Shown: piece by piece, positions 1,294-60,554 of the stretch
How positions within the stretch are numbered: position 1 is the stretch's first letter
Layout: each line of letters opens with the position of its first letter
From: Vitis vinifera
Taxonomy: Eukaryota; Streptophyta; Magnoliopsida; Vitales; Vitaceae
Length of the DNA stretch: 64,000 bases
Direction: 5' to 3'
Assembly (NCBI RefSeq): GCF_030704535.1
Contig: NC_081811.1
Location: forward strand, 3,240,501 to 3,304,500
Program-made: the position numbers and the translations under genes
The notes under the pieces: model-generated
Told to the model about the DNA's origin: nothing
Databases searched by the model: none
The model's input: only the letters and a program-made list of their open reading frames with translations

Positions 1294-1611
1294 CTGTTAT
1301 ATGTACCTGAGACTTTTAATATCTGAGATTGCTGGTGTATTTCATGTAACTCTATTTGTGTTTCATTTCAAAGGGCTGTATCTTTGATCTTTCTTGGAAA
1401 TGAAAGTTCTTGATTGAGAGGTTGTCAATTTGATTGAAATGTGTGGATTTTTTACTACACACTTTTTAACAGATTCATTAAAGACCAACTTCTATTTGAA
1501 CTTACAGATTAAAGTTCTGTAATACACTTCCTGTGCAAGTCTCTAAATCGTGTTTCTGGTTTAGTAAATTGACACCTAGGTAATTGATAGGAACTCCACT
1601 TTCACTCTAAA

Positions 1612-2212
1612 CGAGCTATTTGATGCTTCCTTCATGTTGTGAGTGGGAAGGGTATATGCTAGACACCTTGGTGGAGCACATCATCAGAAATTGAAGGATA
1701 AGATGACTGTTTCATTTTAATGCTCTTTATTAATTAATTTATTTTTTAAACATATTAAATGCTCTTGAATTTTTTATTGGGACAATGGCTTCCGCCAACA
1801 GTGAACTATTAAGGATCGCATCCCACGGATGCTATTTCATGTTTCTTCCATGTTGTAAGTGAGAAGGGTATATGCTAGACACCTTGGTGGAGCACATCAT
1901 CAGAAATTGAAGGATAAGATGACTGTTTCATTTTAATGCTCTTTATTCATTTATTTATTTTTTAAACATATTAAATGCTCTTGAATTTTTTATTGGGACA
2001 TTGGCTTCCGCCAACAGTGAACTATTAAGGATCGCATCCCACGGATGCTATTTGATGTTTCCTCCATGTTGTGACTGAGAAGGGTATATGCTAGACACCT
2101 CGGTGGAGCACATCATCAGAAATTGAAGGATAAGATGTCTGTTTCATTTTAATGCCCTTTATTCATTTATTTATTTTTTAAACATGTTAAATGCTCTTGA
2201 ATTTTTGATTGA
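1612..2212. repeat. Tandem repeat, 216-bp unit, about 2.8 copies
   Basis: The motif GGTATATGCTAGACACC begins at 1651, 1867 and 2083, an exact 216-bp spacing twice. Units run through a conserved block ending in a tract near TTAAATGCTCTTGAATTTTT. Copies differ by scattered substitutions; the third lacks the final quarter. Copies 1 and 2 share a segment (TTCCGCCAACAGTGAACTAT) that copy 3 has lost. No coding sense. It lies just downstream of the kinase gene. Confidence 0.93.
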
Positions 2213-2678
2213 TCTGTTGAAATGTTTGTTTTAGGAGTTTTGAGTTAAGCACCATCCAACCTGTTGCTAAGGTTTATTTAGAATGAGCTTTTTTTTTTTT
2301 AATTGAAGCTTCTTTTTTGTTATTTCCTTTATGTTCAAGATAACTACTAGTAATTATTGCTTCCCGTTTATTGTTCTACGTAAGGCTGAATAATTAATTA
2401 GTTAATTAACTTTTTATCATGAATTTGCAATCTTGTTACTGTTTCTAGTAACCACTTATCCATTTAATTGTGACATGGTGCATGTAGGATAGAGCTCATC
2501 TTTAGCCATTGTTGTGAAAATGTGTATGGTTTCTCACTTGTTGACATCATTCAGCCCCTGCAATTGAGTTTACTTGCTATTAAGTCATGAACAAAGCTGT
2601 CCATGTCAATTTCAAATCATCATATTGTTGAAACTTTTGCGGCCTTATCTCCCACCAAGGTCACACTCAAATGATAAA

Positions 2679-2797
2679 GAGTGTGTTTGATAGTGATTAC
2701 AGGAAACGTTTTAAACTTTTATAACACTTAAATGACAAAAAAATTGAAGTGTTAGATATGTTAGAAACGCTTTATAGAATCACTACCAAACAGGCTC
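2679..2797. mobile_element. Short MITE-like element with inverted ends
   Basis: The left end GAGTGTGTTTGATAGTGATT matches, with three differences, the reverse complement of the right end (AATCACTACCAAACAGGCTC). The element is about 119 bp and non-coding. The TTTGRTAGTGATT core is typical of small plant DNA transposon derivatives. I see no clear target duplication, so the superfamily is not assigned. Confidence 0.55.
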
Positions 2798-5700
2798 AAA
2801 ATCTACTTCAAACCGTTTGATATGAATTTCGACTGACCTCGATCCTTCTAGTCTCCATATGCTTGGAGATTTGGTTTTGTCTGTTATAAATGATTGCTGC
2901 TATAGTTGGTTGAACCTAATAAGGATGAAACTTGCTTCAAATTGTCTAAGGTAAACCTTTATCCTTGACCACTGAAAATCTATTAGCGTTTCAGTCCCAA
3001 AATGAGTTGTGTCCATTTCAATAACGTTATGCTCCCCATTAAATTCAGTGTAGGCATCAAGTTCTATTATTTTGTATTTTTAGGTTCAGTGTTTGTCTGG
3101 TAACTAAGAATGATCATCTTCTTTTATTGGCTGTTTGATAAAGAACATAAAGCAAGAACTATTGAGTGCTAAGTGCAATCATTAGTCATCGTGGACCTAA
3201 CAGTTCAGCAAAATAATTGGCTTTTTTAAAGGGGAGAGATACGTGAGACAACATCCATTAAAGACTGCATTATGTTTTAAAATTCTAAGTAGTTTATCCT
3301 GTTTCACAACTTTGATCTCCAATATTAAAATAATGGCATAAGTAATAAGAGGTAAAATTTCGATTGAGTGATAATCCTATATTAGCCTTTTGCTTCAAAA
3401 TGTTAATTATTATCTTTTGTATATTATGTTTTTGCCTATTATCTAGCATTTGGCTTAAGATGGGAATTGATATCTGACTGTTAAATTTTTTAATTGTAGA
3501 AATATGTTCTGAATATCTTCGTTCCTTCTTCTTCTTCTTCTTCCTCTTCTTCCTTCTTTTTTTTTTTGTGATTTTATTTTATTTTTTGGGTGTTGAACAA
3601 GGTGCAAGAGTACAGATTGCAGCACCTCTTTTTATTTTTTAGGTTCCTTATATTTTTAGACTTGTTTATGGCCATGCATAGCATCAAATGTCATGGTGCA
3701 GAAGCAGCTTGCAATATGTTTACTTGACACTTGATCCTCTACTAGTGGTTCCCTAACAAGACTAACCTATTGGATAGAAATACAGTCATGAGCCAATGTT
3801 TACCAAAAATCTGGCTTTTCCGTCTAAATTGATCATTTGATCTTATAAGCTTCTGTATGATACTATATGCTGAGCATGCCCAACATTCAGGGAATTGGCT
3901 TGCACAGCAGATGCTTCCACCTTGTGAGATGTTACCTTTCACACAATTTTGAACTACAAGTTGTGGTTATGTAATAGCAAAGTTGTGAAACTAATGAGTT
4001 GCTTTCCAAAAATATTACTGAATTTGTTGCCCAGTTGCTCTGAATTTTATTTGAGGCCTTAAATTAAATTTTGACTAAGTGGCTTAATGGTCCTTAGATT
4101 TTCATGTCTTCTTGTTATGTGTAGTTGGAGAGCTCTAAATGTATACTACTTAATTTAAAATTTGTTCCTTTATTCTACTGGCTTTGCATTAATCCAAGGC
4201 TATAAGTGGAAATGCGCCTGGTTTTAGATAGAGCTGCCAAGATATAGCATCACCTGCCTACCAACTTAAAATCTATTTAATTTTTCTATACTTGTGCTTG
4301 TTCTTTTCATTTATTGGTTACATGGAGATTGGGATGTCTCAACTTGATTATAAATAATTGGATGAGGCTTTTTGTTAACCTTTAGGATTAGATGAAGTAT
4401 AATAATACTCAATTTCCATGCAGAGAAAATGATGCCACAAGGGAAAAGGGTCCAGTAGCATGGATAACATAAAATATGGTTCATATCATCATTATACAAC
4501 TGGAGATTTAGGCATTGGTATACAGCTTCAAAGAGATGACATGATTCTTGATTTTCATCTTTAGTGCTTAAATGAATTGAAATACAAATTTACTGTATTC
4601 AAGATTAATTTTTCTTATATCAGTAAAGCAGCTTGGGATTGAGTTGATGTCAATTGACAGCTGGATCCATGTTTAGGTTTGTTTTGAATATGATGTTCTT
4701 GTGCATGTACATGGTTTGTGAGGATGAAAGTAGCATCTTCCCATGTAATACCACTTTTATTGCCCATTGTCCACTTCCTTCAGGGATTGGTACAGGTTGA
4801 GTCATAGCTGATCAAAGTTCAAACCAAGCTCTTGACAGAATATGAAAGAGGTTTTTATTCAACTGGCCTGATTCAGGTTGGTCACTCACCTTTTACCATT
4901 ATGTCTCAATCGATTTACTGGAGCTTGCAGGGCCTACAATGGATATAAGATGTTACCATAAATATTGGTTGTTTTCCCTTGTTGTATACTATGCTTTTAG
5001 ACTATCAAGAAACTTTTGCAGGAATATTAGATAAATACTGCAACAAAGTGCCAGGAAACTGCTAATACCACAGTTTGTGTGGCTACCAATCATGGGGTGT
5101 ATAGGTTTAGGTGGGAAATGTAGCACCACCCTTTATTATAATATTTATACAAGGAGGGCAGATTTTTCGTCTCTCTCAACAAAAGCTAGTTATGGTGTTT
5201 CATTAGAAAAGAGAGCTTTGCTTTGTAGAGGAAATGAAATTGGTGTTAGGGTCTTGTCTTTTCTTGTCAAAAGCTGTTGGTTCTTTTTAACTTTCTTGGT
5301 CTCTGTTACAAATTCCTTGTAATTATGCTTTCCTGGTAACATTACCAAAAATAATTCCAAAGCCAAGAAAAAAGTTGTTAGAAATTTACCTTTTCTTACC
5401 CAGTTATACTTCTGTACTGACCTAACCCCTCCAATTTTTTCCTGACTTCTTTATTTTGCTTTAAGGAGTATATCAGTGTGTGGCAAGGGTCCATCATTCA
5501 ATACAGTCTTTCCCAAATCAGTCCTTTAAGATTCTTAAACAGTCTGATAGTGGGTCACTGATCACTTGGATCAAAGGGCCTGGGGAAAATGGATGAACAT
5601 GAAGAGGGTCCTACATAATACCTAATTTTGAGTTACCAATAAGAGTTTGCCATGAAGAAAAATCACCTGCATTGCACATGCGATACTCCTGTTTGAGGTC

Positions 5701-5918: not shown

Positions 5919-6986
5919 ATGGCAACATCACCAGCTCAAGATCCTCCACAACCACTCAAATACCAGGTAAATCCAACCTTTCTATTGCCACCCATCCCTT
6001 CTTTTCTTCATTCCAAGTGTGACTTCAATTTCTGCATCCTTCTCCTTTGTTTCACAGACATGGGTCTTGAAGGTTTCCATCCACTGTGAAGGTTGCAAGA
6101 AGAAAGTGAAGAAAGTTCTCCATAGCATCGATGGTATCGCCAAATTCCAACCATCTTGCATGTGTTTTCTTCTTCTCTCAATTTCCTTATTTGTTCTATT
6201 ATGTGTAGTTGTTGCATTTCTTTTTGATCAATTCACTTGTATTTTTCTTCATTTTTTTCTCTTTTTTTGAGGGGTCGATTTTACCATGTTCTTTCATGTT
6301 CAGGTGTTTATACAACAGTGATTGATTCTCAGCAACATAAAGTTACAGTCACTGGAAATGTGGACGCAGAGACCCTAATCAAGAAGCTGGTGAAAACTGG
6401 AAAACACGCTGACCTTTGGCCAGAGAAGCCTGACAATAAGGAGAACAGCCCTGGAAAATCAAAGAATAAGAAGAAACAAAATGATGCCAAAGACAGCAAT
6501 AAAGGTAACGGTGAGGGTGATCAGAAGAATTCAGCAGATAAGCCTGAAAACTCTGCAAAAGATGCCAAGAAAGATGATGATGGTGCTGGAGCTAAAACTG
6601 CTCCCTCTGCTGATGAGCTGCAGGGTGATGAAGGTGGTGAAAGTGAGGAGGTCGATGATAAAACCAGTAGCAGCACAGGTGGCAAAAAGAAGAAAAAGAA
6701 GAAGGGGCAAAACAATAATCCCACCAACCCCAACCCAAACTCTGGCGCTCCGCCAGCTGAGTCTGAATACCCTGTTTCCAGTCCAAGCCCAGCACCACCT
6801 CCGAACCCTCCACTTCCTACCATATACCCTTACCCAGCACTGTATTACCCTCCTCCAGTATATGGACTTAACTACAATACGGCATCGTTTCCTAGCACAA
6901 GCTCTTACTACTATCGCCCTGCAACTCCGATTGATCCGATTGAAGAGTTGAATGATGAAGACAACAAAGGGTGCTCAATCATGTGA
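5919..6986 (+). CDS. Heavy metal-associated isoprenylated plant protein (HIPP)
   Basis: Probable metal-binding, membrane-attached protein. Exons 5919-5966, 6058-6133 and 6304-6986 join to 268 residues. The HMA domain starts at residue 17 (TWVLKVSIHCEGC) with the metal-binding cysteines C26 and C29, and is split by intron 2 just after the SIDG loop; it continues GVYTTVIDSQQHKVTVTGNV to about residue 80. Then come a Lys/Asp/Glu/Asn-rich charged linker, a proline-rich stretch, a Tyr-rich segment, and a C-terminal CSIM, a CaaX box for farnesylation. In the family, metals such as copper, zinc or cadmium are bound by the CxxC; here the metal is not shown. It resembles the HIPP35/36-type branch, but I do not assign a number. 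Confidence 0.93.
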
Positions 6987-16084: not shown

Positions 16085-18635
16085 ATGGCGTCGCCGGACG
16101 GTCACAAGGCTTCAATCATCGACGGCAAAGCCATCGCTCAGGCGATCCGGTCGGAAATCGCCGAAGAAGTCCGTCATCTCTCCGAGAAGTACGGCAAGGT
16201 GTCCAATCTCTCTTTCCCGGTCTAGGGTTTCGTGAAGTGATATCAGTTGTACGATGTTTGTATCAAGTTCAGAGCTTCTTCTAAATGGAGCTCTTGTTAC
16301 ATTTCTTAAAATTATGACACTCTGCTCACTCCATCTTCCCTAGGTTCCGGGGCTGGCGGTGGTCATCGTCGGCAACAGGAAGGATTCGCAGAGCTACGTG
16401 AGTATGAAGAGAAAGGCGTGTGCCGAAGTTGGTATTAAGTCTTTTGATGTTGACCTGCCGGAGCAAGTATTGGAGTCTGAATTGATCGGCAAGGTCCATG
16501 AGTTAAATGCTCTTCCTGATGTACACGGTTGGTCGGTTATGAATCTCATTGCATATCTTAATATTACACTTCATGTTGATCCGAGATATGATTTGTCCTT
16601 TTCCTCTGGAATATTTCTGAGTTTGTCCTGTTTTCCATACTGAATTTGCTCTTGCATAGTTGTCCAATTATTCTGTTGTTATTTTCAAACTCATTTTTCA
16701 GTGTTCAAATTCATGCTTTGGTAAGATATTGTGCATAAAATGCAGCATTTCGATTACGGAGACAGATTGGAATGGTGTCATTAGGTGGGATCTGAAAGAT
16801 GATCTTCACTTGAATATGGAACAGAAAAAGAAAATGCTGACTGCAAATGTCATTTAAACGGAATGGAATCGTTTGGAATTTTATGTACAACATAGTGTGA
16901 TGACTGTGGAAGTATGAAATGTCCAAGCACGCCTTTAATGTAATCCCATTTCTTGGGGCATTCTTTCTCGAATTGTTTGATTGTGATTTTAATGGAATAT
17001 TGCTAAAAGTGAATGAGGGCCTGGCCCTTTAATAATCCTCGCTGTTATGATTCGGACAGCTTCTTATTGAGCAACGGTGATAACTCTTTATATGTATATT
17101 GATATATATACACCTTCTATGTTTGATATAAGTTAATATCTCTGCAATGGATCTGCTATTGACAGTTTAAATGCATGATTTCCTACATTGACAGGTATAC
17201 TGGTTCAGCTTCCATTGCCTAAGCATATAAATGAAGAGAAAGTATTAAGTGAAATTAGCCTTGAGAAGGATGTTGATGGTTTTCATCCTCTGAACATTGG
17301 CAAGCTTGCCATGAAAGGGAGAGAACCTCTGTTCCTTCCTTGCACTCCTAAGGTACAGTGGCAATCATGAAAGACAGTGCATACGTTTAATCTCAAGGGT
17401 TACCTTTTTTAAGTTTTTATTAAGTTGATCGAGCAATTGTTTTTGAAGTACTTATAAATGGTTCTTAGCTAGGTCTACATGTTGCAGATAGCAATTTTAT
17501 TTTTTTTTGGTTGATCTGGGACAGTATTTTCTATGTAGGGTTGTCTTGAACTTCTATCCAGGAGTGGTATAAGTGTAAAGGGTAAGAAGGCAGTTGTTGT
17601 GGGTCGAAGTAATATAGTTGGATTGCCGGTTGCACTACTACTTCTGAAAGCTGATGCCACTGTTACTGTTGTTCATTCACATACTCAAGATCCAGAGAGT
17701 ATCATTCGAGATGCAGACATTGTTATTGCTGCAGCAGGACAAGCAATGATGGTAACAAGAGACATTTGATTTGCTTTTGTTTATTCCAAAGCTAATTCAT
17801 GTGCTACCTGGTCTCTCAAGTACTAGTATTTTATTTGATCTCCTTCCAGGATATTACACTTTGATGTTGTTGTTTTTTGTCTCCTTTTGAAGTCTTTAGT
17901 TTGCCTGTATCTAGAATGTGCTTCAGGGCACGGATTATCCTATAAATATAACATAGCACAATTCCAATGTTATGGTTGGCATATTCTTGAGCATCCACAA
18001 CTTACCATGTTCAAATGGCTAAAATGCCAAACGACCTATTATTCACAACCGACAGCATTTACAAATCTAAACATTACTTGGTGTAGGTTTTTGGATGTCA
18101 AATAATTGGTCAGGTTATGCTGTCTTAGGCCACATGAAGTGGTGCAACCTTCCTGTATACATGATATATAACATTGTCGATCATACTCCTAGTACATGGT
18201 GCATGTTCATACCCACTCTAATAAGCTGCAATTTTTATTTGATGGTCTAATCCTCACTTGCTTATTGAACAAATATGATTCTGTTTCTATTGTAATTCCT
18301 TTCTATTTTTGTTTAATTATAATCACTTTCTTGACTGGAATTCACTCTGATTGAACTGGTTAGCAGTGTGACTTACTTGGGCACTTAACATACATAATTT
18401 TCAGATTAAGGGCAGCTGGATCAAACCTGGTGCTGCTGTTATTGATGTGGGGACAAATGCTGTTAATGATCCAAGCAAAAAGTCAGGTTATAGGCTTGTA
18501 GGAGATGTTGATTTCCAGGAAGCATGTAAGGTAGCTGGATGGGTGACTCCTGTTCCGGGAGGTGTGGGTCCAATGACCGTGGCAATGCTGCTCAAGAATA
18601 CATTGGATGGTGCAAAGCGCGTGATTGAACAGTAA
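16085..18635 (+). CDS. FOLD2: Bifunctional methylenetetrahydrofolate dehydrogenase/cyclohydrolase (FolD), cytosolic type
   Basis: Interconverts 5,10-methylene-, 5,10-methenyl- and 10-formyl-tetrahydrofolate using NADP, supplying one-carbon units. Exons 16085-16198, 16344-16527, 17195-17352, 17539-17751 and 18405-18635 give 299 residues, the length of the Arabidopsis cytosolic enzyme. Catalytic Y56 and K60 lie in [18 protein letters not shown] (103-111) and KDVDGFH (124-130) are folate-site motifs. GRSNIVGLP (174-182) is the dinucleotide-binding loop. [11 protein letters not shown] (271-281) is the family signature near the C-terminus. There is no N-terminal extension, which fits the cytosol rather than a plastid or mitochondrial form. 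Every motif is intact. Confidence 0.95.
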
Positions 18636-19859: not shown

Positions 19860-22204
19860 CAATTGAATTTTTTATTTTTATAAATGAATAAACAAGAAAA
19901 TATGTTTGATAATTAAAAAATAAAAAGTATTTTTTTATTATTAAAATTAGAAAACAATTTTTTGTTCTTAAAAATATAAAACATGTTTTTTTGGAAATAT
20001 ATTTGATTATTTTCTTAATTGTTTTAAAAAATAATTTAAAATAAAGCAATGCACTTAAAAGTTTTGATGACTCTTTTAAAAAATAATTATATTAGTACAA
20101 AAAGTAATTAAAAATAAAGCAATACTCATTAAAGTTATGTTTAAAAAGTATTTTAAAATATAGAAAATATGTTAAAAAAAATATTTAAAAATATAGAAAA
20201 TATGTTAAAAATATTTCGAGTTCCACGATCTTTCCTTCTACAAATTATTTGGGAACAGTTTTAAAAAACAATTCTCAAAAACCATTTTTCCAAAATTATT
20301 ATTAAAAATTCTTTCCATTATTTTCGAAGCAATTTTAAATGAATGCAAAATAATTTTTTCCTTTTTATTTCTTACTAAAGATTTTATTTCCCATGAATTC
20401 AAAGAAAACTCACCTTCTAAAATAATTATTTTAGTGCTGGTTTGAAAACTGTTTTTAAAAATAATATTTTGTTCTATAGAATATAAAACAAAGTATTTAT
20501 ATAAGTGTTAAAACTTAGGTTTAACAATTTTTTACTAAAAATAATTTCTTAAAAAATTGTCCTCAAAACATGTTTTTATAGGAGATTTAAAGTGTTTTGA
20601 AGTATTTTTTTTATAGAGTATTTAAAAAATAAAACAAAATATGAATAATACTTTAAAATATTCTATGTATAAATGTTAGTATTTTTATAAAGAATACATA
20701 AGACAAATTATTTTATATTTAAGTTATTATAAAAAAATAAAAAATAAAAAATACCATATAAGATAGGCTATGGGTGAGACCCAAAATGGTCATCAACTTT
20801 GATAAGATTTTAGAAAGCATTAAAATATAAAAACTCAAATATACTGTTATATCTTCCGCTCTCAAGTCAAACATATCCCTACTTTGTCTTTTCTTTATCT
20901 TATCTTTTTTTTTTTTTTTTTCTAATTATTGTTATTTTAAAGATACTATAAATAAATTATTCAAAATAATAATAATAACAACAACAATAATAATATAATC
21001 CTAAAAATTATTATTTTATTATGATAATTAAAATAATAAATTTATTATACTTTTTATTATGTGGATTTCATAAGAAAATATTACAATAAAAAAGTTATTT
21101 TTATATTTTTATTAAATAGATTTTAGAAAATTTGAATTGTTTAACTTTACAATATAATTATTAAAAAAAATATTATAATATTTTTTTATAATTGTTAAAA
21201 AGAGAAATTAAGGCATGTCCTAATATATTGTACTTTTAATATACTTATATTATAAATTCAATACATGAGTGTTCATATGACTTGTACCTACGATTTATAT
21301 CCTTTTTTTTATTCTAATTATTATTATTATTATTAACCTATCAAACAAGAATAATATTAATGCTAGTACATATAAATAATATAATAATGAATTATAAATT
21401 ATTGTTTAAGTAATTATTATTTTAAAAATATTATAAAATAACTTATCCAAAATAATAATAATAATAATAATAATAGCAATATACAATATAATTATTTTAA
21501 AAATTATTATTTCATTTTGATAATTAAAAATATAAAGCTATTATATTTTTTTTTTTATATAGATTTCTTGAAATGTTTAATTTTGTAATATAATTATTAA
21601 TAGAAATAATTTTTAATAAAGAAAATCATAAACTTTTTAAAAAAAATGTCTTTTAAGGTTAATTTATAGTAAAAATAATTTTAAGAAGTATAAAGCAACT
21701 ATTGACAAGTGTTTGTTTAAAAAAAATAAAAATTAAATTAAGTTATGTCTTAATGTATTATATATTTAAAATATTAATATTGTAAAATCAATATATTTTT
21801 GTCATACTTATGACTTGGATATAATATTAATTCTATTAATAATATTAGTAATAAAATTAATGATATAAAACTAGTATCATAAATAATAATATTAATGGGA
21901 TGTTAATGATAATAACAATAATAATTTAATTAGTCTTAATGTAGCATATAAAGCATAAAGGGCAAAATAATAATAATAATAATAATTTTCTAATGAAGCT
22001 TACAAGCCTTAAGAATTAAAAATAAATAAAAATTATTTTCTAGGGTTTTTTTTAAGTAGTAATAAAAATATAATAATATTATTTTTAATATAATGTTAAA
22101 AACATGAATAATAATCACAAAAATAGATAATATCAATAAGAATGATATTAATATTAATATAAATAATTTAAAATACTAATATCATAAATAACAATATTAA
22201 TAAT
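19860..22204. other. Extremely AT-rich spacer with TAA/AAT runs
   Basis: Almost pure A and T with many AATAAT runs. A segment at about 20430-20590 has the AAAACTGTTTTTAAAAATAAT wording of the TIR element at 55157-55531 and may be a decayed relative. No gene. Confidence 0.5.
20920..21900 (+). repeat. Diverged tandem duplication, unit about 0.5 kb
   Basis: Two blocks share order and wording. AATTATTCAAAATAATAATA near 20957 pairs with ACTTATCCAAAATAATAATA near 21441, and the pair TCCTAATATATTGTACTTTT..CATATGACTTGTACC (to about 21287) matches TCTTAATGTATTATATATTT..CTTATGACTTGGAT (to 21820). The offset drifts from about 485 to 533, so indels have built up. Low complexity lowers confidence. Confidence 0.55.
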
Positions 22205-23556: not shown

Positions 23557-24269
23557 ATAATTAATAATAATAATGTGTAAAAAATACAGTAAAATTAAAA
23601 GGGAGAATGGTACAAAAGGGTAGGTTGGGCATAACAATTACTAGAAAGGGTGGTATCTTTTAATAATTATTGGGGAGGACTTTAATAGGCTTAATATACC
23701 AAAACTACCATTTAACTAAAACTTTTAAAATTCAAAGCATTTAAAGTACTTCACTTGATTTGTCAATACATTTATGGTACATGGGTCCCACATTTATTGT
23801 AATTATTGATATTTAAATTTTAAATCAAAATTTTGGGTTTATCCCTTACAATTATATATAATTTGTTATTTAAATTTACTATTTAAAAAAAAATTTTAAA
23901 AATATTTTCAAAATATCATTTATTGTTTTTTTACCTTTTTTATTTTTATTCTAATTTTAAATTTTATGAAAAAAAAAATAAGTTTTATAATTATATAATA
24001 AAAATGATGATTTTTTCATATATATATATATATATTATAATTTTAAATTGATAAATTATGTTTTTGTATTAAATTTAAGGAAGATAAAATGTTTAATTTT
24101 TCATTCAAATTCTCTAAAAAGAATAAGAAAATGGATAGAGAATGTTTAATCATTTTTTATTTTTATAATAAAATAATTTTAAAAAATTTATGTGATTTTT
24201 TTCTTTTGCATAGTGTTTTTTTTTTCTCAATACATCGAGTGGATGATGTTAATATATTTGATATGTTGA

Positions 24270-24745
24270 ATATTAATAAGGTATAAAAGGTGATCCTCAA
24301 TATTATTACTTTTGTTATAAAATATAGGTACAACAAAAATATGTTATAATTACAATATAAATACACTTACATTACAATACATTACAATAAAACCTAATTA
24401 AGAAATTTATGAAATTTTTTATAAAAATGATAATTTTGTATGATCATACCATATTTCACAACATACCTATATCATAAATAATTTCTGAAATCAAATGAAA
24501 TACTAATTTGAATTCACGTAGTTTATATATATGTATATACAAAAATTATTAAATAATTTCAAAACACTAAATAAATGTTGTTAATATATTAATACAATGT
24601 GTTAATACTAATATGGTATGAATAAATATTTTTAGAATTATTACTTTTGTAATGAAATATAAGTACGACATAAATACATTATACTTACAATATAAATACG
24701 CTATCATTACAATATATTACAACATAATTTAATTTATTTTTATTT
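24270..24745 (+). repeat. Diverged direct repeat, offset 335 bp
   Basis: TATTATTACTTTTGTTATAA..AATATAAATACACTTACATTACAATACATTAC (from 24301) is echoed by AATTATTACTTTTGTAATGA..AATATAAATACGCTATCATTACAATATATTAC (from 24637). The block between is unrelated AT-rich DNA. Origin unknown; it could be paired ends of an old element. Confidence 0.65.
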
Positions 24746-25067
24746 AATTTTTTCACGTACTATATTATCCAATGAATAATTGTGAGTTATTCCATTGAAT
24801 AAGTGTGTGTTAGTCAATTGAAAATTTATATATTATTCAATTGATGAATGCTCGTAAAAAATAATTATTCATTATATTATGATAACAAAGTTTTTAATTG
24901 TATGATTTATATATAAAATGATATAATAACTTTAGGATATGGTTTTTATTTATGAGATATTAAAAATTATTTTTTTTACAATGTTCTTTAAAAAATCTCA
25001 AATTTTTTGAAAAAAAATAGTAAATTTTTAAATAGTCAATTGTTCAAAAGTGACAACAATTTTTTTA

Positions 25068-26197
25068 GAGTTTAAGATCAAAATAATCCATGTAAAAAAA
25101 ATGGTAAGAATAGTACCCATCTCAAAATATTTGTCAAAGTAATCTTTTGTATCCACGTAAGCATCTACATGGATCTTTTTTTTTAAGTGTAAAAAATCAC
25201 CGTTGATAATTGTGGTTTTAAAAGTTTCAAAAATATCCTTAAAACCATAGTCTCTACATGTTACAATTTTCCTTAAAACCATAGTTACTAACTGTAGTTT
25301 CAAAATTATTTTGGTTTTAAAAATATCCTAAAAACCACAGTTATAGACTGTGGTTTCACACTTATCTTTAAGGGGAACTCATATAACCATACATCAACTA
25401 AAAAAATATGAGATTTTAGAATTTTGTTTTTTTATTTTTAATTTTAGTATAAATTATGGATGTACTTAACGATGTACCAAATTTCCTTAAAGTTCGTTTT
25501 AGAGTGGAAAATTTTTTTTACAATTTTCTATTGTCAGTTTAAAACTATTTTTTTTACAAATTATCCTTAATAAATTTTTTCTTTACGACTGTTTTAAAAT
25601 TATATATATATTTTTTTATCTTTATTTTTTTTTTCATATTTTCCTTGAAATTTTGAGAAAATAATTTCACTTATGTGCATTCCCATATAAAATTTATATA
25701 TTTATGGTAAATAAAATATTTATTTATTTTATGAATTCTATCACATATGAATAAAAGAAAATTATTTTTTCATATTATTTTTAAATTTTAAAATAATTAA
25801 ACAAATTGTTTATATTATTTAAAATTTTATATTTTCATAAAAATAATAATGTTAATGATTATGATTTTAGGTTATTCCTTACTAATTGTGGTTTAATGGT
25901 TATCATAATAAAAAATATTTTACCATTAAAATGAAGGTGGATTAGAAATAATTTTGAAACCACAATTAATAACTATGATTTTAAGGAAAATTGTAAAATC
26001 ACAGTTTGTGACTGTGGTTTTAAGCATATTTTTGAAACTTTTAAAACCACAGTTACCAATGGTGGTTTTTTACACTTAAAAAAAAAATCCACGTGGATGC
26101 TTACGTGAATACAAAAGATTAATTTGACAAATATTTTGAAATGGGTACTATTCTTACCATTTTTTTTTTACAAATGGATTATTTTGGTCTTAAATTC
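25068..26197. mobile_element. Mutator-like non-autonomous element with about 250-bp terminal inverted repeats
   Basis: The left arm 25068-25313 is repeated in inverse order at about 25945-26197. Shared blocks include TTTAAGATCAAAATAATCCA at the tip, TGGTAAGAATAGTACCCAT, CAAAATATTTGTCAAA, and AAAACCATAGTTACTAACTG. The ends begin GAG, and flanking 9-mers ATTTTTTTA (25059-25067) and ATTTTTTCA (26198-26206) differ at one base, which fits the 9-bp duplications of Mutator elements. The interior is AT-rich and has no transposase. Each arm itself contains several AACCACAGTT / AACTGTGGTT words. Confidence 0.8.
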
Positions 26198-26206
26198 ATT
26201 TTTTCA

Positions 26207-27903
26207 AGTTAAGAAATGTACCGTTGATTGCCTATCAACCTGTAGTTATCATCATGTATAGACCTAACATCATTTATCAACATGTACTTATCATCATATA
26301 TAGGCCCCACATTATTGACAATGTCAATTTATTTATAAATAACATAGAAAACATATTAATGGGTAAAATTGTCGGAGTAAGTCTTCATGGTCATTATTTT
26401 TTTTCATCCATGTTTGTGGGTAATTCTCCCAAATTAAAATAAAAATAAAAGCAAAAAACAAAAAAAGATACAATTGGAATGATGTAATTGTCAATTTTTG
26501 AAAGGTCTTTATAGGAATTTGAAAATATGATGATTTTTATGAGTCATTATCTACGTGATTAAGATAGGAGTATTTATTAGTTCTGCCAGTTGAGCATGCC
26601 TGCATAGCAGGGAAAGGACAGACACCTACAAAATAAATTCTAAAAGACTGCAAATGCTAGGCTGTACTATGAATTTATTCCACTTATTTTTTCTAAAAAA
26701 CTGACATCTAATAAATTGTCAGATGTGTATTTAATTATGAATTTATTGCTATTTAATTATGAATTTATTGATTTTTCTAAATATCAAATCAATCACTTCC
26801 TCTAATTTTAAAAAATATTTTTAAACTTTCTTATACCTAAAATCTTTATCTATCAAATATTAAAAATAAAAAAACAATTCTTAAAATCACTATCAAACAC
26901 ACATTTTTTTCAATTATTATTTCTCTTTTATTTTGATTTAAATTAAATACTTTTCAAGATAAGGATAAATTTATTTCTTTTGAATCATTTATAATTCAAA
27001 ATAAATTTTTTTCTTTTAAAGGACCATTATGGATAATTTTCTATTTTTTGATGGCAAAAAAATAAAATTAAAGTCATAATTTTTAAAGCATAATAATGAC
27101 AACTTTTTATATAAATCAAAATAAAAACTTTAATAAAATTTATTTTTAAGTATATATTTATTTTTACTTAATTTTTTAAATAAACCTTTTTTCTCTTTGC
27201 CACTTACTTATTTTTCTTATTTTCTTTCTATTTATGTATTTTTTTTCACTTTCTTTTCTTTATTTATTATTATTATTTCTTTTTTTACTTTGCTACTTAT
27301 TTCATTTTTGTTCCATTATTTTATTTGTTGTTTTATAAAATTTTAACTTTGTACACTTTTTTTTTAACTTTGTCACTCTTTTTCTTTATTGTAAAAAATT
27401 CTTAATTCAGTATGTTTTCACCGAGTAGGTATATAATAAAATGATAATTGGTGTATGATTTTGAATTTTTTACAAAAAATAGTCAAAATCAGAATCATTT
27501 ATTACGATTTTAACATGATGGTTTTTTGAACTAAAAATTTATATATATATTTTAAAATATTTTAAAATAAATTTAATATTATGAATTTATTATATTAAAC
27601 TCATTTTAAAAAATAAACAAAAATATTTTAAATAAAATAACATAATTTCATATGTATATATATATAAATTTGAAGTTAAATTTAAAATAAAGTAGTAATT
27701 GGGGATTATGATTTTGATTATTAAAAAGAAAAAAAATAAAAACCGTAATCACTGCTGTTTAATCGTAACATAGATGCTTATGTTTTGAAATCACATTGAA
27801 CTGAGAATTATTCCACATTCTGGATTTTTATTTTAAATATGGTATTTTGGGTCAAATCTCAATTTCTCTGTCCGAGGTACCATCAATCTTAAAATCTTTT
27901 CCC
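26207..27903. other. AT-rich spacer before the PCC13-62 gene
   Basis: Begins with a two-copy 42-bp repeat (26233-26316: TATCAACCTGTAGTTATCATC then TATCAACATGTACTTATCATC). The rest is AT-rich with T runs and (TA)n tracts and no recognised element. The last 100 bases form the gene promoter. Confidence 0.45.
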
Positions 27904-27910
27904 TATAAAA
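27904..27910 (+). promoter_or_regulatory. TATA box of the PCC13-62-type gene
   Basis: TATAAAA in CCCTATAAAAAGG, 76 bases before the start codon at 27986, followed by a pyrimidine-rich leader. Confidence 0.6.
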
Positions 27911-27985
27911 AGGCTACTTAATTAGCTCCATGGTGCATGTAGCCTACCTCTAACTCTTCTTCTTCTGGTAGTTGTTTTTTATCGT

Positions 27986-29177
27986 ATGCCCAAAAGAATG
28001 GCTACTATTTCTCAATCTTTCTTCTTCATCTTGCCCTTTCTTCTTTATTCGAGACTGGATATAGCAAGCAGTGCTCCCGGCTGTGGACCACTAGTGGCCG
28101 ATGATGTCGACCGGATTCAATTTGCTCTCAACTTGGAGTTCTTGGAAGCTGAGTTTTTCTTGCATGGCGCCCTAGGTGAAGGGCTCGACCAGGTTGCTCC
28201 GCAGTTGGCCCGTGGCGGCCCACCTCCAATTGGTGCCAGAAAGGCCAATCTTGATGACTTTGAGCGTCGAATCATAGAGGAGTTTGGTTATCAGGAAGTT
28301 GGCCATCTCAGGTTAGTGGTCATATATATATATATATATACATGCATACTGAGATTTGAGAGTTAATGCTTTGCAAACCATATTGGATTGTTTTTTCAGG
28401 GCCATCACATCTGCAGTGGAAGGACTCCCAAGGCCTCCATTGGATCTTAGTCCTCAAAATTTTAAAAAAATTTTTAAGCAGGCAATTGGACAGGATTTGA
28501 AGCCCCCGATGGACCCTTACTCGAACACAGTCAACTATCTCCTAGCAAGCTACGTAATCCCTTATGTTGGACTCGTTGGTTATGTTGGCACCATTCCATC
28601 CCTCACCAACTCTTCTTCGCTCAGTGTAAGAATTACTGATAATTGTTTTTAAAATTAATTTTTTGTTTTCTAAAATAAAATATCAAAAAATTAAGGAAGC
28701 TTTGTTTGAACAGTGTTTCAAAAATAATTTTTTTTTATTTCAAGGCCAATAATTAATATATGTCATGGTGACTTAGCTAGACTATATTATTGCATGCAGC
28801 TGGTTGCATCGCTGCTAGGCGTGGAATCAGGGCAGGATGCAGTTATACGGGCATTGCTGTACAAGAGAGAGAGTGAATTTGTGCAACCCTACAACATAAC
28901 CGTGGCGGAGTTCACACGCGGAATCTCCAATCTAAGGAACCAGCTGGGCATGAGTGGAGTGAAAGATGAAGGGGTCATCGTAGTAGACCCGCAGTCTGGG
29001 GCGGAGAACAAGACCGACAGTAACATATTGTCGGCGGATGCCAATTCACTGTCGTATGCGAGGCAACCGCAGGAGATTCTGAGGATTGTGTATGGAACTG
29101 GGAATGAGAGCCAGCCTGGAGGCTTCCTTCCGAAGGGTGGAATTGGCAATATTGCACAAGCCTATCTTAATTCTTAA
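27986..29177 (+). CDS. Desiccation-related protein, PCC13-62 type (ferritin-like domain)
   Basis: Exons 27986-28311, 28400-28625 and 28800-29177 join to 309 residues, the usual length for this family. An N-terminal hydrophobic segment (FFFILPFLLYSRLDIASSA) looks like a signal peptide, so export to the cell wall or vacuole is likely. If translation starts at the second Met (27998), the protein is four residues shorter. The ferritin-like part begins at LEFLEAEFFLHGALGEG and continues through FGYQEVGHLR and YLLASYVIPYVGLVGYVG. The C-terminal region has LLGVESGQDAVIRALLY and GGFLPKGGIGNIAQ, both typical of the family. The founding member was found in a resurrection plant during drying; a biochemical activity is not established. 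Intron 1 holds a (TA)n tract at about 28323-28340. Confidence 0.93.
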
Positions 29178-35739: not shown

Positions 35740-38172
35740 TTAAGGGATCCATCTGGGATCTCTTGGACTAAAGAAAGAAGCCTCCACATTAGAGTTAAGC
35801 AGTTTAAGGGCGTTGCTGGACTTGATGCACCTGGGGGTTTTATACTGATTGATGGATCCCCCTTGGCTAATGAAAAGGTCCATCAAGTCTTCAAATGTTC
35901 CGGGCTGCACGAGTCTTATCTCGAGCGGTCCTACAGACTTATCGTGTGTGCGGCACCGCCTGTAGATGTAATCAAGCTCTTCTTCCACAGCAATGCAACA
36001 CTCTTCTAGCACCTTGGAATCAAGTGGGGTACTTGGGGAATCTGTAGAGATACAGTGTGTGATCTCCCAATATAGCACGTAATGCCCCGGTAAAGATGAT
36101 GTATCGGCATAGCTAGTGTATTCGACAAGTAGAGCATTATAGGGCTCTAACAGCTTTTTTGCCATTGTGATGCTCCTATGCAGATCCTCTTCATTGGTTT
36201 TGTCATTGTCGATGCTGAGGACAACGTTTCTCCTGCAGATAAACCGAAATTGTGGAGCTCGGTTGTGGAATCCAGTCACTTGGAGCACATCACCGATTCG
36301 ATACCGATTCAGTCCTGAAAATTTATGTAAAATCAAGCAACAGTGATGCAAAAGACACGTATTGATACAATTCAATGCTTTCCAATACCAGTAAACGATA
36401 TGTGATCAAGAATATATTCTTACCAGCGAAGGTGGTAACCACCAATTCATAGTAACAGCCGAGTCGAACATGCACTAAGTCGACAAGCTTCTCTTTTGGC
36501 ACCCCCTTTTCTTCATCCATGTCCATTAACAGTGTCCCATTCTCTCCCAAGGGTATAAATTCAAAATAACACATGTTGGGCAAGAGGGTAAAAGCTACAT
36601 CGGCAGGATCACATAAGGGTTTCATATTAACTCCAAAGTAACACTCGGAGGAAGCATACATGGTGCACACCAATGGTAACTTCCCTCCACTGTAGTACTC
36701 CAGTGAAGGTATATATTGTGCCATTGAACCTGTGATCACAGCCTCAATGTACTTGGCCCTAGGCCAAAGCTGACTGAGCATACCCTTCCATGATGGATGG
36801 CTACAGATTTCCTCAATTTCATCAGCCAGATGCGGGTTGGGGGATGAGAGTATGGTCGACATGGACGACCGACACTCAGGATCAGTGATGCTGGAGTCAA
36901 GATGGCCTGTGCGGATGTCGTTGCAGAGGTGGACCCAATGGCGCTCAAGAAAAGATATGGCCCGGAGAAGGGCTGATGCAAAGACTGCTCCAAGCCGCAG
37001 GACTTGGTGGCGGTGGACTAGACCGGCGAGCAACTGGCAGTACATGCTTTGGTTGCTATCAGTGCACAAGATGGCCTGGTCGGGGCTAGTGAAGTCGTTG
37101 AAGGCGTCACGCACTCGGCACCTGAAGTTCTTGCTCTTATAGTAGCTGGTGAGCACTGCCCGGGCTGGTAAGCCACATGGTGTCGACATTTCCGCCTTGA
37201 CAAAATATAGAAACATCGCCTTGCCTTCATCAAGACCAGGGATGTACCTGAAATTAATTTTTTTTTAGGATCACACACAATAGAATCAATCAGATAATGT
37301 GTATATTTGACTTATAAATGACCATTTTTAAGGGTGCTATATACTAGGTCCAATATCAACTATGTGTCCATTTTCGAGTCACAGCTCACTAGACCTGGTG
37401 CAGATGGATGGGTGAATTAATAAAGCAAGTAATGGGTTAAGTGTTTATCATGCGTTTACACGCAGCCTACACTATCCATTACCCGGATTCTCAGAGTATG
37501 CTTCTGGGGTGGATGCCACCAAACACACAAATTTTAGAAGATATTATGGATGAGTGGAGGGGGGCTGTTTTCTCTGAAGGCAAGCTCAACCCCACACCTC
37601 CATGTGTCTCCTTGAAGGAAAAAAGGGAATAATGATGTTAAAAGCTACATGTAAATGTGATATATAGACGGAAGAATCTAACTGGTTCATGATTGGCATG
37701 ATGAGATTATATAAAAAGGTTCTGCGGTTGAGATCTTCTGCGATCGAGGGCATCATCTTAGGCTCTCCACCAGAAGTCCCAGAGCTGCAAATCAAATGCA
37801 AGAAACACAAGTTCATTAGAAATATTCAAAACGGGACAAGAGACACAAGTGTAGCAAAGGTGATGAAAAGAGAGAAAGGAACCTGCATAACATCTCAGTT
37901 ATTGGGTGACCGCTAATGAGAGAAGAGTCTTCACCATTAGCGATTCTCTGGATGTAAGGATGGATATCCTTGTAAGTAATAACGGGAACACTCTGCTTAA
38001 ACTCTAGTACATCTTTTGATCCCCCCATGTACTTCTTCAAATACTCAGTCTCACAATTACGTGCTATTATCTCTTTTAAAATGTTCTCCTGAACTTCATC
38101 AGCCTTGGCTGTGAACTTTTCCAGTTCCTTCAATGCCTCCTCACCTCTGTACTCCAATCTTTTCCCTTCCAT
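35740..38172 (-). CDS. GH3.9: GH3 family acyl-acid amido synthetase, GH3.9 type
   Basis: GH3 enzymes adenylate a plant hormone acid and join it to an amino acid; this branch (group II) acts mainly on indole-3-acetic acid and lowers free auxin. Exons on the minus strand are 38172-37883, 37784-37683, 37247-36424 and 36314-35740, giving 596 residues. Motif 1 SSGTSGGEPKMMP starts at residue 97, motif 2 YASSECYFG is at 328-336, and motif 3 RYRIGDVL is at 409-416, the three ATP/AMP-binding motifs. Residue order, exon pattern and the ending SFFSPRDPRWIP match Arabidopsis GH3.9 better than GH3.1-GH3.6 as I remember them. The residue before the last motif is Asn (GLNRYRIGD) where most relatives have Tyr. 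One TGTCTC auxin-response-like word lies at 38812-38817, too far and too common to weigh much. Confidence 0.93.
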
Positions 38173-38262
38173 GTCACTAGAAAATGAGTAAGAATAGAGA
38201 AGAGTAGCAGAAGAAGTTAACAAGACTGGTTGCAGTGCTTCTCAGGAGTGAACCAATAGGGT

Positions 38263-56775: not shown

Positions 56776-57028
56776 TCTCCTCGATTAATTTTTGTTGTTA
56801 CAATAAAATCTTTCTAATGTCAAAAATATTTTTGTTTTTCCTAAATCCAATTCCTAATGACCTAATTTATAAAAATGCAAAAGATTCGAAAACAGTGGTC
56901 AAACAGATTGGCATTTCTGTGATAATGTACAAAAGCAAGGTCATATTCCATACCCCTATTTTGTCCTCTTTAAAACAGCTCGCCAGCCCGCTATTTTGTC
57001 TCGAGGAGTCTCAATAGTTTTTCATACA

Positions 57029-57048
57029 GAGAGAGAGAGAGAGAGAGA
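57029..57048 (+). repeat. (GA)10 tract in the RALF leader
   Basis: Perfect GA dinucleotide run ending 21 bases before the RALF start codon, so probably in the 5' UTR. GA repeats are bound by BPC/GAGA-binding factors in plants; a role here is not shown. Confidence 0.7.
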
Positions 57049-57069
57049 AAGAGAGCAACAACACCAACT

Positions 57070-57426
57070 ATGGCCAATTCTAATGGCCTTTTCCTCATAT
57101 CTTCCATCTTCGTCGCAGCTCTCTTCACCGCCTCCGTCTCCGCCGGCGGGGACTTCAGCCAACTGAACTGGGAGCCGGCAGCGAAGGCAGCAGCCACATG
57201 CCAAGGCTCGATAGCGGAGTGCCTCGCGGGAAGGGACGAGTTCGAGATGGACACGGAGATCAACCGCCGCATCCTAGCGACGACGCAGTACATAAGCTAC
57301 GGTGCGCTGCAGAGGAACACTGTTCCCTGCTCTCAGAGGGGTGCGTCCTACTACAACTGCAAGCCCGGTGCCGAGGCCAACCCCTACAACCGTGGCTGCA
57401 GTACTATTACTCGTTGCCGTAGTTAA
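57070..57426 (+). CDS. RALF: Rapid alkalinization factor (RALF) peptide hormone precursor
   Basis: Secreted signalling peptide; family members bind CrRLK1L receptor kinases such as FERONIA and raise apoplastic pH. Single exon, 118 residues. Signal peptide at about residues 1-25 (LFLISSIFVAALFTASVSA), acidic propeptide, then the site-1-protease cleavage motif RRIL (66-69). The mature peptide begins near ATTQYISYGAL with the receptor-binding YISY (74-77) and has the four conserved cysteines C87, C97, C110 and C116, plus the YNRGC and ITRCR signatures. The frame is GC-rich compared with its surroundings, so overlapping open frames on both strands are artefacts. It belongs to the classical RALF1/22/23/33-like group; I do not assign a number. 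Confidence 0.96.
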   Translation: MANSNGLFLISSIFVAALFTASVSAGGDFSQLNWEPAAKAAATCQGSIAECLAGRDEFEMDTEINRRILATTQYISYGALQRNTVPCSQRGASYYNCKPGAEANPYNRGCSTITRCRS

Positions 57427-58533: not shown

Positions 58534-60554
58534 TTAACCATCATCTGGCTTCACTTCATCAGGCTTCGACTTGGGTGGTGCCAAGGGGCTTGGAGAGCCC
58601 TCTGCTCCCATCTCTGCTCTCAGCTCGTTGATGCTCTGCTCCAACTCATTTATTGAGTTTCCCATCTCATCAAGTGAGTCCAAGTCAAGGAAATAAAGAA
58701 CTTCCCATCAATCAGTCTCAATGCAAATGTGAAGCACACGTACTCCCACTGGTCTCCTGCTTGTGATTTGTGAAGACTAGGGACACTTGCACTTCTCTTT
58801 GCCCAATATCGTGTATAAACGCATTCTATATCCAGAGTTCTTATTGCTTGGGGCAGGAGAAACATCAAAACTAGGGTTGATGTGATATGATTGCACAAGG
58901 ACTGATGATCAAGACCAAGATATGCGTATATTCACACAAACTAAGGTATTAAGCCTATTCATACCATCTCACAGATTTGAATCATGGCAAACATGTATAG
59001 CTAAAGATGATTGACAGAATAGAAAGTACAACAGACAAATTTATACCCTGAGGTCTAGCTCAGATGGTATAGAGGTTCCATTTCAAGTGTGTGTGTCAAT
59101 ATGAAGGAAAATAGACAAGTTTGTCCTAAAACATTATACTGGAGGGATTTAACTGCCTTCAATCATAGGCATATTAAGACGTATGTTGGGAAAATGGGTT
59201 CTTCCCATTGACTCACTGATGCCTATAATATTCATTACCATCAAACTGACTATGAAAAAGGATATTCTTTGTAACAATGGAGTCTGACATTGCCTGGAAC
59301 CTGGATTGCTGAAAGCAAAGTTACATTTTAGTAAGAGCAGCATACCAACAAAATTTCCAATCAAGAAAAAGGCAATTTGCAGAGTCACAACTCACCATCT
59401 GCTGAAGAAGGTTTTGCACCTGATAAAAACAAAGCAATAAAAATGAGTCAACGCTGAGGGACTTTGTTAATAAACGCAGAAAAATTGCAACAGTCAAATA
59501 ATGGTTCCTACATCCTTTCAAATCTGACTATTTCGTTGTAAAAACCAAATTCTGATGATTTGAGAAATAGGAGGTTATTAATCATAAGTCAGCCCTTCAT
59601 AGTGGCCTCTAATTCCCACATTCATGTTATGAGGAGGACAAATTCCCATATTTTTCTTTTAAAAAGCTAGAGAAACTCACGAAAACTGTCATATCAGCAG
59701 TGCTTTTTGGATCTTCCAAGTTTTGTCCATCCTGCCAGCAAGACCAGTTAGTAAAATGAAACTGATCACCATTTGCAGTAACTTCTAATTTCAATGCCCC
59801 TAAAGCAGAAGTATATTAAGATATTAAAACATCCCTAATTATTTCAACAAATGAAATTGAATCTGATCCTAAAATGCAACTCATAACCATTTGCATGAAT
59901 TTTGAAATTCCAATGCCTCATAGACAGAAATAGATTAAGATACTACCGGAAGTTTTTGATCTTAAATTTTGGAAATATCACCTCCTCCCCCAATGGAAAA
60001 GACTGATCTATGTTCTGCTTCTTTCGATTTTTTTTTGGTTTAAAAAGAGGCGGTCATAAAAAACACTTTCTTGGTTCAACCTATATTGCAATCCAACTTA
60101 CATCCAAGCATCCACTATATCATATCCCAGACTCCGGCAATTTACTACGAAAAAACCACCAACAAATCCACAAACTTTTACAAAAAATATAGAATATCCG
60201 ATTTTCCCACCCTAAGACTGTTTGAAAACCGATCACAACCGATGATGCCCGCAGCAACAACGACAAAATCAAAGACATGGCATTCAAGACAAGAAACAGA
60301 GCATTAATAATTCAATGAAAGCAGATCTCAGGGGCTACAAAACTAAATTTTCCATCAAATTGCCCTCAGAATCCTCGAAACCTAACCCAATGTTTGTCTC
60401 GGGGTAAAAATGAAAGAAACAAGAAGAAAATGCACGCAAAATGGCTCAGGAAAAACCACTTCCAATGCTTCCTCATTTTTCCCGAGAACCAAACAGATCG
60501 CACAAAGATTCAACCAAAAACGAGCAGATGATAGAGTTGGATTATCCTCACCAT
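58534..60554 (-). CDS. HSBP: Heat shock factor binding protein (HSBP), five coding exons
   Basis: Small coiled-coil protein that binds heat shock factor trimers and damps the heat shock response. Minus-strand coding parts are 60554-60552 (only the ATG), 59731-59681, 59419-59396, 59308-59266 and 58673-58534, giving 86 residues. Readable order: DGQNLEDPKSTADMTVF, VQNLLQQM, QSRFQAMSDSIVTK, then I-DEMGNSINELEQSINELRAEMG and a Ser/Pro/Lys-rich tail. The hydrophobic heptads typical of HSBP are intact and the protein closely follows Arabidopsis HSBP. Three introns are GT-AG. The last is a U12-type AT-AC intron (listed), and recognising it restores the frame and the conserved sequence. Without it the gene would look broken. 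Overlapping open frames in this region are shadows. Confidence 0.92.
58674..59265 (-). other. U12-type AT-AC intron of HSBP
   Basis: The intron begins ATATCCTTTTT (59265 downward on the minus strand), a full match to the U12 AT-AC donor consensus. It ends TTCCTTGACTTGGACTCAC at 58674, holding the U12 branch element TTCCTTRAC at 58692-58684. The branch A (58685) is 11 bases before the AC end, inside the usual 10-16 range. It splits the Ile codon after SIVTK in phase 1. Length 592. No GT donor or AG acceptor at these positions gives the conserved protein. Confidence 0.92.

Follow-up and report, generated by a model that had tools for sequence, protein, structure and literature searches.

Which intron separates the last two coding exons of a small HSBP gene in Vitis vinifera, and which spliceosome would remove it? 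The gene lies on the minus strand of the window, by which we mean the whole 64,000-nt stretch of DNA (on contig NC_081811.1) that was analyzed here. Reading this strand from 60554 to 58534 by frame and splice consensus gave a model with five exons, as follows.

60552..60554, minus strand: HSBP exon 1; its coding part is the ATG alone, then a GTGAGG donor (predicted from the frame and the splice consensus)
59681..59731, minus strand: HSBP exon 2; 51 nt, between GGCAG and GTGAGT
59396..59419, minus strand: HSBP exon 3; 24 nt, between ATCAG and GTGAGT
59266..59308, minus strand: HSBP exon 4; 43 nt, 3′ end ACAAAG A
58534..58673, minus strand: HSBP exon 5, coding part to the stop; 140 nt, the stop codon ending at 58534

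While introns 1 to 3 have GT-AG ends, the question concerns intron 4. All five coding exons are in frame, and their joined product of 86 amino acids reads ...SDSIVTK-I-DEMGNSINELEQSINELRAEMG... across the last junction, which falls between the first and second bases of the isoleucine codon (phase 1). Against the coiled-coil domain of the Pfam family HSBP1, the joined protein scored 76.5 bits over residues 14 to 61 (E 1.4e-21; curated cut-off, 28.6 bits). Solved structures with an E value of 0.001 or better comprised one distinct sequence, that of human HSBP1 (3ci9; E 5.4e-10), and the alignment to it runs without a gap across the exon 4/exon 5 junction. These matches clearly assign the predicted 86-residue protein to the HSBP1 family, to which Arabidopsis HSBP (At4g15802) and rice OsHSBP1 also belong (PMC12582567, PMC12922113). 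HSBP is described in plants as a negative regulator that attenuates heat-shock factors, and HSF trimer binding and attenuation of the heat response are known for its relatives (PMC12582567, PMC12922113). Relatives of the protein were also sought in viral and genome contig collections, where 36 and 341 pattern matches, respectively, yielded none that was confirmed.

Other features of the window include, downstream of HSBP and on the opposite strand, a frame with a RALF peptide domain (56974-57423, plus strand; E 2.9e-30). Farther away, open frames on the plus strand match dephospho-CoA kinase (814-1290), a heavy-metal-associated domain (6228-6983), and tetrahydrofolate dehydrogenase/cyclohydrolase (16344-16640), while two minus-strand frames (36326-37264 and 37819-38241), which match parts of the GH3 family, are probably exons of the same gene. 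A 216-bp unit repeated in tandem at 1615-2211 (2.8 copies, 95% matches) follows the dephospho-CoA kinase frame at a short distance. Most of the window has a GC content of ~0.3 to 0.4, with very AT-rich stretches at 20001-22000 and 24001-28000 (0.155, 0.183, and 0.224 per 2 kb). Scanning the window with Rfam at gathering scores gave 0 matches, as did a tRNA scan.

The HSBP frame joins correctly between exons 4 and 5 only if 59265-58674 is taken out as an AT-AC intron. The first-pass annotation had placed a U12-type AT-AC intron at 58674..59265, and these coordinates proved exact; the minor-spliceosome donor, the branch element, and the AC 11 nt after the branch A that it reported are all present. 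The features of the intron are the following.

58674..59265, minus strand: U12-type AT-AC intron 4; 592 nt, phase 1, first A at 59265 and last C at 58674
59255..59265, minus strand: 5′ splice site ATATCCTTTTT; its first 10 bases are the same in the paralogue described below
58684..58692, minus strand: branch element TTCCTTGAC, whose branch A (58685) precedes the last intron base by 11 nt
58674..58676, minus strand: 3′ splice site CAC

Intron 4 thus starts with ATATCCTTTTT and ends with TTCCTTGACTTGGACTCAC, its donor context being AAAGA/ATATCCTTTTTC and its acceptor context GGACTCAC/TTGATG (slashes mark the splice sites); a slide of even one base at the exon 4/5 junction is impossible in either direction. 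The extended donor consensus of U12-type AT-AC introns is ATATCCTTT, and a donor of this kind was found in both HSBP genes of the genome, as ATATCCTTTTT in the window and as ATATCCTTTT in the paralogue. The branch element TTCCTTGAC matches TTCCTTRAY, the branch consensus of plant U12 introns (PMC5932401), at 9/9 positions. A distance of 11 to 13 nt from branch to acceptor is given as the optimum (PMC3584512), and both intron 4 and its counterpart in the paralogue, with 11 nt and a CAC end, lie within it. Phase 0 is reported to be avoided by minor introns (PMC10639083), a bias with which the phase 1 of intron 4 agrees. A distinct polypyrimidine tract is not expected in U12-type introns; pyrimidine counts per 20 bases were 14 and 12 in the two AT-AC introns versus 12 to 16 in six U2-type introns, so that the two kinds overlap, the branch element itself being pyrimidine-rich.

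The paralogue came from a Pfam-family search of the window's own genome (495.6 Mb in 21 contigs; 150/619 candidates scored), in which HSBP1 gave one match, on a contig (C5) other than that of the window (C7). The window's own HSBP gene was absent from the result; the search therefore misses genes split by introns, and the copy number it gives is a lower bound. In coordinates of its own locus, the second gene comprises:

1417-2906, minus strand: second HSBP gene (L001), with the same AT-AC intron, donor at 2307 and last intron base at 1563

Exon 3 of L001, with 24 nt, and its exon 4, with 43 nt, are as long as those of the window gene. Its AT-AC intron of 745 nt follows exon 4 at the same codon and in the same phase, starting with ATATCCTTTT and ending with TTTCTTTGACTGTGATGCAC, and its branch element, TTCTTTGAC, is one base off the TTCCTTRAY consensus, with CAC at 11 nt. 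An ATG-only exon 1 is assumed for L001, for which ATG-GTAAAT, located 2,139 nt upstream of exon 2, is a candidate.

Between the two genes, identity in the coding exons is 85% across 204 columns; the 65 codons compared hold 11 silent differences and 10 residue changes, and 7/18 fourfold sites differ. Exon 4 falls within a 59-column match (59314-59256) that is 93% identical to the paralogue. When the two gene regions were compared at an E value of 0.01, five pieces aligned, four of them on exons 2 to 5 and the fifth a 28-bp match elsewhere (E 0.002). Two of the exon pieces continue into intron 4, that of exon 4 for 10 bases and that of exon 5 for 27. The first 10 bases of the two introns are identical (10/10) and the last 27 share 20, while the intron bodies show no significant alignment (best E 0.19); among 2,000,000 random pairs of 10-mers drawn from both bodies, none was identical. 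Judged by these alignments, the ends of intron 4 have been kept between the HSBP paralogues and its interior has not.

AT-AC ends can also belong to introns taken out by the major (U2) spliceosome, as known from sodium channel genes (PMC2831892), and the HSBP intron might be of this type. The sodium channel introns, however, have G at +5 (PMC2831892), the mark of type II (U2-type) AT-AC introns, whereas position +5 is C in both HSBP genes. This C disfavors the U2-type reading, against which the extended donor ATATCCTTTT and a 9/9 branch element 11 nt from the intron end also speak, and we regard it as very unlikely.

How much weight do the motifs carry by themselves? A loose pattern, consisting of ATATCCTT followed within up to 3 kb by TTCCTTRAY and AC, has 1 full match in the window versus a mean of 0.23 expected, and 21/100 simulated windows reached this number. 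As motifs only, the donor-branch-AC set is weak evidence and not rare in this AT-rich window, and we rejected motif statistics alone as proof. A looser scan (donor RTATCYTT, branch of at least 8/9, up to 3 kb) gave 59 combinations in the window, among which only 59265-58674 has a 9/9 branch. A second branch/acceptor cluster within intron 4 (TTCCTTCAT, with ACs at 59093-59087) was also considered and set aside, having an 8/9 branch and giving no HSBP reading at the conserved codon. As a separate observation, ATATCCTT occurs 11 times on both strands of the window versus ~5 expected (2/100 simulations reach 11), with 8/11 occurrences on the minus strand.

A different picture emerges once the splice sites are anchored to the protein. 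We enumerated in-frame pairs, taking donors in exon 4 or up to 250 nt beyond the AT-AC donor, and acceptors in the interval that begins 250 nt upstream of the AT-AC acceptor and ends 90 nt downstream of it. This yielded 55 pairs near the HSBP junction (26 GT-AG, 10 GC-AG, and 19 AT-AC), and each of the 55 products was scored with human HSBP1 as the reference, which is independent of the AT-AC product. The AT-AC pair 59265/58673 alone came out on top with a score of 129, the next pair reaching 115. In the paralogue, the matching AT-AC pair likewise stood alone at the head of 28 pairs, with 135 against human HSBP1 and 119 for the next. Anchored to the HSBP protein in this way, the AT-AC pair is strong evidence.

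The same enumeration bears on the possibility that the true intron is of the GT-AG kind, for instance 59275/58665, with loss of the residues VTKIDE, or 59216 with exon 5 starting from 58633 or 58618. In-frame GT-AG pairs near the junction are indeed plentiful (26 in HSBP, 16 in the paralogue), and the pair that loses the six residues VTKIDE is common to both genes. Yet the best GT-AG product scored 103 against human HSBP1 versus 129 for the AT-AC product, and 108 versus 135 in the paralogue, and a GT-AG reading would not explain why both genes have kept the AT-AC signals; we consider it slightly less probable even than removal by the U2 spliceosome. Decay or mis-assembly of the locus, with loss of expression, can practically be dismissed, given five coding exons in frame, normal GT-AG signals in introns 1 to 3, and a protein at 76.5 bits versus the Pfam cut-off of 28.6, and in view of the intact frame we rejected a pseudogene.

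We therefore read 59265-58674 as a U12-type AT-AC intron of phase 1 between HSBP exons 4 and 5, most probably so (roughly 0.96), because its splice pair is the unique best match to human HSBP1 among the 55 in-frame pairs near the junction, the paralogue has the same intron, and position +5 is C.

Donor and branch of minor introns are recognized by U11 and U12. In HSBP intron 4, the donor ATATCCTTTT would be read by U11 and then by U6atac snRNA, and the branch element TTCCTTGAC by U12 snRNA; the second splicing step would take place at the AC 11 nt downstream and restore the isoleucine codon of SIVTK-I-DEM. What the sequence shows is the anatomy of the gene, its intact joined frame, the protein family, and conservation in the paralogue; actual splicing of intron 4, its dependence on the minor spliceosome, and any effect on the heat response are inferred. 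If intron 4 is retained, the frame ends 17 codons in, giving 57 amino acids (40 correct plus 17 new), and this product would lack the latter half of the coiled coil of HSBP. There is no later intron in the coding model, and decay of the retained RNA would therefore probably depend on a long 3′ end.

Human cells in which minor splicing of such introns fails also resort to alternative major sites (PMC8280824). One candidate of this kind lies inside intron 4:

59211..59216, minus strand: cryptic U2-like donor GTGAGT; its in-frame GT-AG use is predicted to replace part of the coiled coil

The two GT-AG products closest in length to the AT-AC product both start from this GTGAGT at 59216. Together with the GT at 59275, it is a candidate alternative major donor, the resulting isoforms being predictions; these include an in-frame loss of VTKIDE when donor 59275 is paired with the AG before 58665. 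The warning of the first-pass annotation that gene finders forcing GT-AG ends would truncate or otherwise misread HSBP was broadly right, as retention gives 57 amino acids and all 26 GT-AG products score below the AT-AC product. Gene finders restricted to GT-AG introns are expected to misannotate both HSBP copies.

How unusual is such an intron? AT-AC introns are reported to make up 26% of U12-type introns in Arabidopsis, 22% in rice, 23% in soybean, and 13% in maize (PMC7367187), and a share of 4.8% is quoted from another survey (PMC5932401). With 165 Arabidopsis genes listed as having U12 introns (PMC3422263), these figures translate into a handful to some tens of AT-AC U12 introns per plant, making them rare but not extraordinary. 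Their description as a very small class in plants holds in absolute numbers, though not as a share, which is 13 to 26% of U12-type introns in four plants (PMC7367187).

A close parallel is intron 4 of the plant CBP20 gene, which, like HSBP intron 4, has AT-AC ends and a TTCCTTRAY-type branch (PMC5932401). Its position in the gene has been kept over long times and the other introns are U2-type, features in which HSBP is alike (PMC5932401). The CBP20 case, however, covers ten species and includes cDNAs and in planta tests (PMC5932401), whereas that of HSBP draws on the sequence of two paralogues in one genome. The report on rice describes OsHSBP1 with an exon 5, and the intron class is not discussed for the family in the text available from PMC12582567 and PMC12922113. 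Among the matches listed in our literature search, none linked HSBP to U12 splicing or treated intron 4, which intron databases may nevertheless hold. AT-AC minor introns are reported to require DROL1 in Arabidopsis (PMC11039992) and CENATAC in human cells (PMC8280824). HSBP intron 4 is of the same subtype, and its retention is predicted if this module fails (PMC11039992, PMC8280824). As it stands, we see in HSBP intron 4 a well-formed member of an intron class that is known and long-lived.

Could the AT-AC intron of both paralogues act as a regulatory valve, in which minor-spliceosome capacity sets the amount of HSBP and hence the speed of heat-shock shut-off? Such capacity may shift with heat or cold, and if splicing failed, HSBP would be made as the truncated product of 57 residues or as GT-AG isoforms whose coiled coil is altered. 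A precedent is the U6atac/p38 switch of human cells, where minor introns occur in stress-response genes, as in the case of HSBP; this switch was demonstrated in human cells and is for plant HSBP an analogy only (PMC3728624). It has been argued that neutral processes may account for much of minor-intron evolution, and between human and Arabidopsis conservation is described as lower for minor than for major introns (PMC10639083), while alternative splicing with U12-type introns is reported to be almost absent (PMC3584512). On these grounds, we hold the regulatory reading to be unlikely. Should splicing of the intron nonetheless respond to temperature, the minor spliceosome would be linked to the way in which the heat-shock response is switched off.
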